Below, piece after piece: positions 33,501 to 39,500 of a stretch of 64,000 bases of DNA (positions are counted from its first letter, which is position 1; the number at the start of each line of letters is the position of its first letter). A program made the translations under genes and the position numbers. Source of the DNA: Glandiceps talaboti (lineage: Eukaryota > Hemichordata > Enteropneusta > Spengelidae). The notes below the pieces were generated by a model that searched no databases, was not told the origin of the DNA, and saw only the letters and a list, made by a program, of their open reading frames with translations. Location: NCBI RefSeq assembly GCF_964340395.1, contig NC_135568.1, forward strand, positions 6,520,579 to 6,584,578, read 5' to 3'.

Positions 33501-36500
33501 AAAAGATATTATGTATCACGTGAAGTACCTTGTACATGTACATGTATATTGGATTCTCACTCACTTTCAATGGTTATGACTCTGTGTTGTTCTAGGAAGC
33601 TCTGAAGAAACCAGGTAGACGAATTGTAAAAGACAGTAAATCACAACAACTGACATTATCTAGTGCTTCCAGATTCTCTAGTCATTGGTTTGTACTCTTT
33701 GATGAAGTCTTTGTCCATGCACAGGTATGTAATTTCTTTGTCCATGCACAGGTATATGTTCTCGATAATTTCACCTCTTCATCGTTTGTCCATGCATAGA
33801 TATGTATTTGATTATTTCACCAGATATAGCATGTATCTCTGTCAGTCTGATATCCCCATATGAATACAGAGTTCATTTCAAATGAAGGTAGAATAATCTG
33901 TCTAATGATATTTCATTCACTGTCATTTATCCTTAATATCATCTATCATTTTGTTTACGCTTAATTATGTTTGTTTCGTTATGTACTTTTTGACTGTAAA
34001 ATTCCACTGTTCAATAGTGTATTGTCCATTATCAATAATTTAAATTCAAAGTCCATACTGTTATTTTCATTGCATAGAATTATTGTGATGCAAATGTTGA
34101 TCCCTCTCTAAGTAGAACTCATGTACCATCAACTATTTTCACACACACACACACACACACACACACACACACACACACACACACACACACACACATGCAC
34201 TCACATACATGTACACACACATGTGCATACATATGTACACATATCCATACACACACATACATACACAACACACACATACATACATACACACAAACACGCA
34301 TACATACACGCATATACACAATACACACACACACACACACACACACACACACACACACACACACACAATGAAAGTCACAATTTACAGATTACCATAATTT
34401 ATAACCTTTTATTTTAAATAGTGCACTTATATATATCCATGCTAGCATTGCTTTAACAAACCCTTAGTCATTGGAATTATTAGCCCCCTTTATTGTAGTA
34501 AAGCATGTTATGAAGTATTTCCTGCAGTGCTGGGTTGGACAGTTTGCCGCATCTTGCCACTAGAGGGTGCTATTTATCAGAAAGGTCAAATTAATATTTC
34601 TCGATCAAATGAAAATTCATCTGTGTTGGTAAACTATAGTATCGAATTAAACTTTTGTTCCGAACACAAACTTGAAAATTGTACCAAAAATTTTTGACTT
34701 CACACTTCAGTCTTTGTCAAGAAAGAAATCAGTCCCTGTCTGTGGAATGAAATCTGTTGACAAAGACTGAAGTGTGCAGTTGAAAATCTCTGGTACCATT
34801 TTCAAGTTTGTGTTTGGAACAACAGTTTAATTCGATACTAATATCTCCTTTGATATGTGTACTTCAATGAAATTATTCCAAGAGTCCATTCTGGAAGAGA
34901 AATTCAGAAATTCTCAAAACATTTTTGGATATGTTTATAGTGGATATTGAAAGTCTTCAATGGTGTAACCTAATACCTTGTACACCGATGATGTAAATAT
35001 GAATTACCCATCCTCCTTTGCAACATTGCAATACTCCTTGAGGATGCTATATTGTTGCAAAGGAGGCTGGGTAATGAAGAGTACTATTTGTATGTGTGAT
35101 CTGCTGCTTAGCATCCCATTCTTGCATTTGAAATTTTAATAACACTTTTCATCAATACATTTTCCTGCCAAAATTTGTTGTTAAAAACTTTCTACATTTT
35201 CATGAATTTTTCAAACAACTGAAATTATATTTAGGTAAAAACAGAAAAGATGTGTGTTTTTATTAAGAGAGAGGTCACATTGTGTGACAAAGTGTTGAGA
35301 AAGGAACACAAGAATGAAGTTTGTGAAAATAATTGATGTGCTACAGTGATGAGAGCCGTACAGACACTAACTAATTATTAAAGTATGTCATAATATTAAC
35401 TTTGTTCTTGGTAAAGATTGTCTAAAATAATCCATTTGTAATCCTCGCTGCATCATTCTCACCTCAAAATCTGTATTCATTCCATGTGGATCTTCGATTA
35501 ATCATTTTCTGACCTTTGACTGACCTTTCAACTATGACTTCTTGACCTTTCTTCTAAGCATGACAGCAAGAGTGGGATAGCTAGGCCAGGATCAAAAGAC
35601 CAGGTATTTCCCATATTTCATCATGTGCATGCTGTCCGTTCATGTCACCATTACTGCCTCTGTTCCATCCTAATCCATGGTGCTTTTATGGGTACAAGAA
35701 GCTGTCTGTCTTGTTTTCGATGTTCTGTACATCAACTTTTGGATTTTCTCGCTTCCGTCATTCTCCTTCAAATTGGAGTTTGAAGAAACTTCTCGTGATT
35801 CAAAATGGTGTACTTTGCACTGTGTTCATAATTTGACACTTTCTGACTATTCCGGCATGTGATTGGTCAAGTCTTATCATGTGATATTCATGGTTAATCA
35901 CATGACATCCATGTGTCATTAACTAACCAATCAAATTGCACTTTAATACTTGTTTCCAGGACAACTCTATCTCCAGTATTAGCAGTGAGGTAACTTGACA
36001 CAATATAACTCACATGAGGCCAAACAATCCAGTAAAAAAATTGAAAAAATTTTCATCCATAAATATGCGAATGTTTAGTTTTGACAGCAGACATGTACTG
36101 CATGCATGTGTAGATATTGTAATAGTTGGTGTTCTGTAGTCTAAGTGTATGCTGCCAACAAGCTCACAATGTGTAGCAGCTGAAATAAAACTTAATCAAC
36201 AGCAGTCATGCATTTCAGTGCTTTCCCACATATCACCAGCTTATGTGAACATGTACTTTTATAATTAATGTTATGGTGCCCTGTCAGCATTGGTTTTATG
36301 TAACTTGCAAAATTGAAGTTTTTAGGATCGCTGCGAAAAGTGCAAAGTGTCATTATTGCCAGGAATGCATGTAAAAATCCCGAGTTCCACAGGACAGCAT
36401 GAATCTGAATAGTAAAATCACCCAACCCTATGTACACATGTCAAATCATAGCTTTCTCAAACACCGTAATATAAGTTGTAGAAATTGTACCATTTTGACA

Positions 36501-39500
36501 GCCAGTTAATACTCTGTTTTAGATATTGTTTTTTGTATTTGGTCATCAGAATGGTAACTGTAACCATAGACAGTGGAGGGAACCACCTTCTATGGTGTAA
36601 CAGTGTTAGTGATTATGTCTGGTATAGAGACATAGTTTTGCAATTGCCTTCCTGACACTGGTGGCGCTCTAACGCATAATTAAGATAAATTGTACTTTTG
36701 GACACAGAATTCTTTATTTCGTTTCTCTAGTACAAAGCCACAAATCTTTTGAAAGCAGATATACCCAGTATGTTCAAGCAGAAAGACTTAACACTAAAGG
36801 ATGTGAGTAGAGTGTGAACAAATCTAAAAGATTCATCAAAAACGTATTACTGACTTTGAGTGGGTGTCATGTGACATAGGGTGTCATGTCATGTGACAGT
36901 ATCATGTCATGTGACATAGGGTGGCATTTCATATAAGAATCACAGTTTTTACAGCACATCATTTTTTTCTCCCTTGTAAAATGAACACTTATTCAATAGT
37001 ACAGAGAAGTATGTCAATTTCAATGTATATTTCATGAGAAATTTGCATGTACATGTGTACATATCGGATGCAATGATAAAAAAATAAATAAAATTTTGCT
37101 TACATTTATGATAGTTTACTTATCAAAAATTTTAATTTTCAACTTTTCTCAACATAGGTAAAATTAATTTTGTTTATTTCATCCAATGCCTGGCTCTGCC
37201 ATATGTTTTTGATTAAAATATTGATTTAATAAAAAATTTGAAAACAAAATTTTTAGTTTAAATTTTTCGGTTTATTATGTATGTTTTTGTATATACTTTC
37301 CTGCTATATCACATAAAAATATAGCAAATAATTTCAAATATTGGAAATTATTTACCACGTATTTCTAAATAGTTTTCTTAATTTTTGTGATGAATTATTC
37401 GGACTAAGAAATCCATAGTATCATCTTCACCAACTAACATACTGGGGGAAAAACATCAATCGTCATGGTTACATTGTCTGTTAACATTCCTGTCCAAAAG
37501 TACAGGTCAAAGGTTATGTGCATGATGTGTTTCAACTTTTCCAAAAGACCAATAAGCCATTGAGATGGTTTGAAATAATCTTTTATGAAGGAAGATTCAG
37601 CAATATTGATGGACGCAATATGAAAAAAGAACAACCCACAATTTAGTCTCGCAGAGTTGCTTACCAGCTAGGGTTATCATGCTTTCAGTGTAGAGAGTGG
37701 TAGGCCTAGTCAAAAAGTGACTGATGGAGTTGACGTTGTAAGTAAGACAACGAAAAGCCAAATCTCCAAAATGGATTGTGGGTCTTTTGGAAAAGGAGGT
37801 AAACACATTTGTAAAAACTATGTGCTTGTTTTGTTTGCATGGCTTGCATTTGCAAAGTAATGAATAGTGAAGCAGATATAGAACAGTCACCACTCATAGA
37901 CAAAGATACAAATTTGGTGTAAGTTAAGGAGTCATACCCTATGCCAATCCCTCAACTTAACCATAACCTGAACTCCCTAGCTTTAAACAAATATGCATCT
38001 TTTAGATAGTTTGGTCGACTGTTCTACAAAATTGCCAACATATGCATATCAAAGATGAAAATAATAACATGGGTTAAGGTTTATGAATAGACAACATAAA
38101 ACATAAATATCACAGTAGATGACAAGTTTTTATTTCATGTATTTTTTTGTAATTTTCAGTCATTTGCATCACATCAAGTGTACCCATTGGCCACAGTATG
38201 GGCAGAAGCTGTACCAGACTCGGAGCAAGCACAGTAAGTGTGTTATTGTTTTCTTGAAATATTACATGTAACAAATTAGCTCAGATTTATTCCAGGTAGA
38301 GTACAGAGTATCCAACACTGGTGTAAGTAGGACATATTTTATCAATTATCATGCATGTGATTATTTGTCATAATTTTATTTATGAAAAAACTCCAGTAGC
38401 TTAACTTTTTATTCGGTGAAAAACATGCAAACTTTCTAAAAATGGGAAGTTTAAATCATTGTAATTTCTAATTAGCTAAATACCCCAATAGTTGTTGATG
38501 TGGCTCCATACTGCTGGTACAGCTATGTGCACAAGCCAGTCCTAGGTATGTGACTGTTAGTGTTACAGGAGTGTGAAAAGTTCCCTGTGTAGTTTTGTTG
38601 ATGTACTTAGTACACTAGCTTGATGCCCATGTGTAAACTAACAAATAAGTGGTCCTGATCGTTTCAACAAATATTAATTGTTTTGGATCTGGATAGAGTC
38701 TCATTAATTGTAATTAATATATATGTCAGTAATCAGAACAAGATATTAAAACAAGTTTAAAATAACTACAGAAGTTCTGAAAAAAAGTGTTTCCTGTTAT
38801 AGCTACTGGGGTATTAATATACCCAGTCTAGGTCCTGACAGGGAAAGTATTCTGTACTACAATGTACTCCATTATTCTACTCCCAGTCTAGTCAAGGTCC
38901 CCAATGATTGCACATAATTCTGTGCACCCTCCCACAGGGTTCATATAAACATGATGATGTCCTCGTGTCCCCACGTGATCTTAGTTTAAACAAACTGGAA
39001 GAGTTAGACATTTGCATATCATTATCACATGCTAAATTCCTGTGATAGTCAAAACATGGTCAAAACAGCTGTATCAAATGAATATTAATGAGTGATGACG
39101 ACAGCCTGTCAATTTGTGATGGATTACTACTGACATGCGCCTTTCGTTCTTCGCTCACCATGATGTTCAAACACACTTGACACCTTTTTTGGGGACCTTG
39201 AGTAAACTGGGAGTAGAGTAATGGAGTACATTGTAGTACGGAATACGTTCCCTGTCAGGACCTAGACTATGATATACTTTGCATGTTCATTTTTTCATTG
39301 CATGATATTGACAGTAATACATACATGTCTTCATTCACAGCACTGTTGTTGATGGCAAAGAAACACCACCTACTAAAAAGGAAACGTAAGAAAAAACAAC
39401 AATCGTGGTCTGTTTTCAAAATATCATCTCTATCACCGTAGAGAGTTAGCAGCTTGTAATATCACCTGTTTCATTACAGCAATATGATACTAACAAGTTT

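Follow-up and report, generated by a model that had tools for sequence, protein, structure and literature searches.

We suggest that the ALS2 gene of the enteropneust hemichordate Glandiceps talaboti plausibly has two short additional exons, and perhaps a third, which would extend a loop of its PH domain. The window analysed here is a stretch of 64,000 nucleotides (nt) of contig NC_135568.1, to which all positions below refer, and the putative exons lie within a single phase-0 intron of the gene, the 4,435 bases between 33724 and 38160 that we call the PH intron. They are exon a (35559..35603, 45 nt, 15 residues), exon b (35960..35989, 30 nt, 10 residues) and exon c (36731..36802, 72 nt, 24 residues), all on the plus strand. 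From their splice sites, frame and codon usage we are fairly confident that exons b and c are real and class both as probable; exon a we class as undecided, its prospects lying somewhat short of even. As far as the sequence can tell, it appears an evenly balanced proposition that the PH intron contains two or more real coding exons, b, c and possibly a, which would serve as a regulatory insert in the beta3-beta4 loop.

The PH intron of ALS2 and its candidate exons

The original prediction took the gene for ALS2, and Pfam matches to RCC1, DH_Alsin, PH_alsin, MORN and VPS9 bear this out. The coding span runs from 25718 to 50124 on the plus strand in 25 exons without internal stops; it encodes 1,662 residues without the candidate exons, where the original prediction had counted 1661, and 1,711 with all three. 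The RCC1-like N-terminal domain is present (RCC1, 139.4 bits against a cut-off of 21.7), and the Alsin_RLD profile, given one exon, reached 25.3 bits, below its cut-off of 100. An alsin-type DH domain (DH_Alsin, 74.4 bits, cut-off 30; RhoGEF, 36.7 bits, cut-off 27.6) is followed by an alsin-type PH domain (PH_alsin, 70.3 bits without the 49 candidate residues, cut-off 40), by MORN repeats (46.2 bits, cut-off 22.5, found in one of the two MORN-region exons given) and by a C-terminal VPS9 domain (79.1 bits on the joined C-terminus, cut-off 27, found in one of the three single exons given). The exon at 29269 was placed by frame and by what we take to be its likeness to human alsin.

The first half of the PH domain is encoded by exon 10 of 25 (33596..33724, plus strand), which ends in VFVHAQ in phase 0 at a donor scoring 5.05, the best of the 285 GTs ranked here, itself included. 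The next accepted exon (38160..38233, plus strand; exon 11 of 25 if the candidates are left out) begins SFASHQ and encodes strand 4 onward, and its acceptor (2.94) is the third best in the intron. When the two are joined, residues 2-62 match PH_alsin 10-70, with exon 11 lying within the match up to profile position 70; the exon at 41479..41781 (plus strand), which encodes the end of the domain and the linker to the MORN repeats, carries it to position 109 of 110.

The Pfam PH_alsin profile spans the HAQ|SFASH junction without a net gap. For the claim that HAQ runs straight into the next strand in human alsin, our basis is the family profile, with which it agrees, and not the human protein. An alignment with FGD5 (3mpx, E 0.00017) is gap-free across the junction, and one with FARP2 (4gzu, E 0.00053) has FARP2's own extra residues there. 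Both alignments place the junction between PH strands 3 and 4, as read by eye from the alignments and not from a structure model of this protein, and both uphold the predicted insertion site within a PH loop. The general PH profile loses nothing when the insert is included (25.2 and 26.7 bits).

The sequence, frame and splice-site strength of the candidates, and their place within the PH domain, are direct observations. All three stretches have the lengths, AG and GT borders, open frames and phases (0/0) with which they were first described, a symmetry of phase that is expected of cassette exons and that three accepted ALS2 exons also have; any subset of the three could hence be used without a change of frame. 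Together they encode 49 residues, 11 of them Ser or Thr, in which a polar, Ser-rich part comes first and a segment containing five lysines comes after it. The description of their splice sites as good holds for exons b and c, whose acceptors rank first and second among the 212 AGs of the PH intron, ahead of that of the true exon at 38160, and whose donors rank 5th and 6th of 285; it does not hold for exon a, with an acceptor of -0.51 (37th of 212) and a donor ranked 10th. Nor does the term microexon, usually defined as 3-27 nt, suit exons a and c, and it can be used only loosely for exon b. Neural microexons of the SRRM4 type carry UGC a short way before their 3' splice site; here UGC stands at -23 of exon b, only at -86 and -92 of exon c, and nowhere within 100 nt upstream of exon a.

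We infer that these exons are spliced in, and, because the PH domain is complete without them, that some or all are probably optional; that at least one is skipped in some transcripts we hold to be slightly favoured. A competing explanation, which we consider rather unlikely, is that b and c, perhaps along with a, are genuine exons but constitutive, forming a lineage-specific loop lengthening that is always present and has no switch. The acceptors of b and c do surpass that of exon 38160, as would be expected of exons in constant use, and all three candidates are in frame. However, the donors of the candidates are weaker than 20 of the 22 accepted donors, exons of 30 nt are often optional, and the family profile has no insert at this place, all of which speaks against constitutive use.

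Support against chance

A second alternative, in our estimate an unlikely one, is that the candidates are pseudo-exons, open stretches with consensus-like borders that arose by chance in a long, AT-rich intron and are never or rarely spliced. Within the PH intron, 150 open phase-0 stretches of 24-150 nt were ranked by score: exon b came first, exon c second and exon a fifth, outranked also by a longer version of the 72-nt candidate and by an unrelated stretch at 37672. As background we used 22 stretches of the same genome, on both strands and in three phases, comprising 215,000 N-free bases once the 5,000 N bases of 220,000 had been excluded; three of the 22 are neighbours on another contig (C7) that had been chosen for another reason. 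At a cut-off of 7.31, this background predicts 0.24 candidates per intron of 4,435 bases, and two are seen (P 0.025). Other cut-offs give one seen at 7.43 (P 0.21), two at 6 (P 0.043) and two at 5 (P 0.082), so that the probability for b and c by score is moderate and depends on the cut-off, a point in favour of pseudo-exons. At the score of exon a (2.74), 1.14 are expected and four seen (P 0.029), and exon a taken alone is at the level of chance, since more than one candidate is expected at its score. Smaller controls in all phases (other introns, 45,705 bases with 12 matches; reversed introns, 59,010 bases with 7) likewise imply 1.2 or 0.5 expected candidates at this level. The other ALS2 introns, each read in the phase proper to it (13,409 bases; the intron 28195-30020, whose exons were then unsettled, was omitted), contain three candidates that exceed 2.74, none of which exceeds 6.71. 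We note that the background test is conservative, because the background may include real exons.

Two further results argue against pseudo-exons. In a paired-site test, devised after the ranks were known, each of the two best acceptors of an intron is required to open an in-frame cassette to one of the top six donors. This pattern is true of the PH intron, its flanking true sites being excluded, and of none of 252 background tests (84 of 88 stretches of 4,435 bases, those with N being excluded, in three phases), ten of which have one such acceptor. With looser ranks, two or more are found in 1 of 252 (top 3 acceptors and top 8 donors) and in 2 of 252 (top 4 and top 10). The second result concerns codon usage, which, compared with random open stretches from ALS2 introns, favours the pooled 49 codons of the candidates (P 0.005); taken separately the exons give a less clear result (0.043 for a, 0.094 for b and 0.058 for c).

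A naive gene finder, which was not told of the candidate stretches and took its codon usage from the other ALS2 exons, chose all three candidates at exon penalties of 2 and 4, and only the 30- and 72-nt exons at a penalty of 6. The sums of acceptor and donor scores alone (6.47 for b, 6.01 for c) lie within the range of accepted exons. For exon a, we observe that the acceptor of the exon at 29269 scores -1.63, weaker still, and a weak acceptor therefore does not rule it out. This exon (29269-29407) and that at 28694-28806 were found late, and are in neither the score training nor the table of 21 internal exons used for comparison.

Several observations weigh against the presence of extra exons. 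At a penalty of 8 the gene finder dropped all three candidates, and at penalties 2, 4 and 6 it also took 37672-37798 and 28794-28806, both probably false, the first of which led it to a wrong start for the true exon 38160 (penalties 2-6); several further stretches that it took at penalties 2 and 4 are probably false as well. The total scores of exons b (7.43) and c (7.31) fall below those of all 21 tabulated internal exons (minimum 9.39), as pseudo-exons would. The codon score of exon c, 0.054 per codon, is close to the lowest among accepted exons (0.051-0.281), and a donor inside it at 36767 (score 2.58) is stronger than its own and would shift the frame. Exon a has a poor acceptor, and its total score is no more than chance accounts for. 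In the paired-site test, the two wrong phases of the PH intron yield one cassette each. ALS2 itself supplied part of the training for the splice and codon scores, and the codon test favours the candidates because its random stretches come from introns that served to train the background. Finally, with the 49 residues included the PH_alsin match drops to 58.5 bits, as against 70.3 without them, and breaks into two pieces.

Duplications, repeats and neighbouring genes

The end of exon 10 has a feature that the original prediction missed, a potential optional in-frame extension of 27 nt (33725..33751, plus strand; VCNFFVHAQ) formed by a duplicated exon end with its donor. A direct repeat of 25 nt occurs here in copies at 33710, 33737 and 33785 (region 33710-33809), the last of which has decayed and lost its GT; the copy at 33737 keeps an in-frame donor at 33751, scoring 2.14 as against 5.05 at the first copy and ranking 7th of 285. 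The extension would fall in the same PH loop, and with it PH_alsin scores 61.4 bits. When the ends of 24 ALS2 exons were scanned against the introns that follow them (at most 8 mismatches in 26), copies were found only at the exon ending at 33724 and at exon 49285. In the latter, a VPS9 exon, the exon end and donor are duplicated as 49228-49303 and 49416-49491 (76 nt, 87% identical), the copied donor lying at 49473; a 65-nt repeat in three copies stands near this duplication.

It has to be asked whether tandem duplication and splice-site noise account for all of this, with donor 33751 and the extra exons yielding low-level, functionless aberrant isoforms; the three copies of the exon-end repeat, together with the copied end and donor of exon 49285, which indicates that such duplications occur in ALS2, are in keeping with the idea, but we regard it as highly improbable, as the candidate peptides resemble the PH exon and the rest of ALS2 no better than shuffles do and hence do not visibly stem from that duplication.

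Other origins for the exons were also considered and set aside. Derivation from the PH exon by duplication finds no support in the peptide alignment, which was equalled in 89 of 500 shuffles, and in 169 of 200 when the rest of ALS2 was compared. Derivation from a repeat is not supported either: a search of the genome (590 Mb, megabases; simple repeats and very common words skipped) with 35480-36860 gave a single match, the query itself, although repeats flank this segment on both sides within the PH intron. A search of the same genome with the PH_alsin profile for a paralogue of ALS2 gave one other match, on C7, which at 22 bits is below the cut-off, contains a stop and looks like chance. As to the repeats themselves, a fold-back repeat at 34605-34840 has at least some 100 further matches in the genome, many of the places matching on both strands, and is like a short inverted-repeat element; a dispersed repeat at 37870-38049, just upstream of exon 38160, has 26 other matches.

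Elsewhere in the window, kinesin motor-domain exons lie on the minus strand at 593-4128 (two were tested, scoring 76.2 and 71.5 bits), and the gene downstream of ALS2 has a JmjC-domain exon at 56832-57200, minus strand (53.8 bits). The same profile search that found the JmjC exon gave no matches for the open reading frames at 58735-59016 (minus), 63237-63482 (plus) and 55231-55530 (minus). In the assembly, the mitochondrial DNA takes the form of a 15,435-base unit that is repeated. Its cox1 is without AAA codons and has ATA at four sites that, we presume, resemble Ile sites, and nad6 is the only protein gene recognised on the minus strand. By the genetic-code facts given in PMC2697986, these features suggest Ambulacraria and probably an acorn worm; the place of cob speaks against this. 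In this genome cob stands between atp6 and cox3, whereas nd5 and cob are adjacent in two hemichordates, according to the available text of PMC2697986.

A proposed regulatory loop insert and its known counterparts

The junction falls in the beta3-beta4 loop, which controls guanine nucleotide exchange factor (GEF) activity in TRIO and P-Rex1, and by analogy a regulatory loop insert offers the best mechanism for the extra exons. Their inclusion would add 34 to 49 residues to the loop, which, if it behaves as in TRIO GEF2 and P-Rex1, would sit next to the DH domain or the membrane, tuning DH-PH exchange activity or membrane docking, perhaps by phosphorylation of loop serines. That the loop regulates DH-PH activity or docking is nonetheless a tentative suggestion, with the odds leaning the other way. 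A more elaborate scheme, in which two donors (33724 and 33751) and three phase-0 cassettes form a combinatorial, splice-coded loop of up to 16 variants that sets the inhibition or docking of the Rac-linked, Rab5-activating ALS2 in different cells, would be a long shot.

The question is of some consequence, since mutations of the alsin gene underlie recessive motor-neuron diseases and the role of the protein's PH domain is poorly understood. If the extra exons are real, a natural, removable loop insert would indicate which surface regulates DH-PH, and its variants could go straight into exchange assays; a non-vertebrate animal would moreover join the few cases in which this PH loop acts as a regulator.

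Insertions between strands 3 and 4 have precedents in the PH domains of PLC-gamma and alpha-syntrophin. These split PH domains accommodate an insertion without loss of their fold (PMC10296670 and, for alpha-syntrophin, the title of a reference in PMC4922055), but there whole domains are inserted. Human ALS2 has the same order of RLD, DH-PH, MORN and VPS9, with its DH-PH linked to Rac1 (PMC8773251); the available portion of that article differs in mentioning long and short forms and no PH-loop exon, and the literature searched for a PH insert in alsin, as far as its text was accessible, describes none. In mammalian alsin, DH-PH binds Rac1, but in COS-7 and HeLa cells its exchange activity on Rac1 is reported to have had no relevance (PMC8773251), which makes an effect on Rac1 exchange itself uncertain.

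Functional parallels exist with other exchange factors. In TRIO GEF2, also a DH-PH factor, exchange is inhibited by the PH domain that carries the beta3-beta4 loop, and certain loop variants from patients relieve the autoinhibition; the loop itself, which is unique, disordered and little conserved, lies over a helix near the RhoA-binding side (PMC12309612). Unlike the residues in ALS2, which would come from separate exons, it is an ordinary part of the protein and acts on RhoA, and the accessible sections of that paper describe no splicing switch. P-Rex1 has an unstructured loop at the same position, of which residues 306-322 can be replaced by T4 lysozyme (PMC9371973), with regulatory serines S313 and S319, the phosphorylation of S313 lowering GEF activity (PMC5363633). 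P-Rex1 belongs to another DH-PH family, its loop is not described as spliced in the text available, and the ALS2 serines do not align with S313 or S319; nor is the P-Rex1 loop expected to contact Rac directly (PMC5363633), which counts against the proposed reading. In ARHGEF9, the tip of the beta3-beta4 loop binds membranes (PMC4704004). Although the cytohesin 2G/3G case involves one residue in the phosphoinositide pocket and a measured change of lipid preference, and ALS2 tens of residues in another loop, predicted from sequence, the cytohesins resemble what we propose in that an optional, in-frame microexon, there encoding a single glycine, sets the binding of the PH domain of an exchange factor (PMC10586773, PMC6948192).

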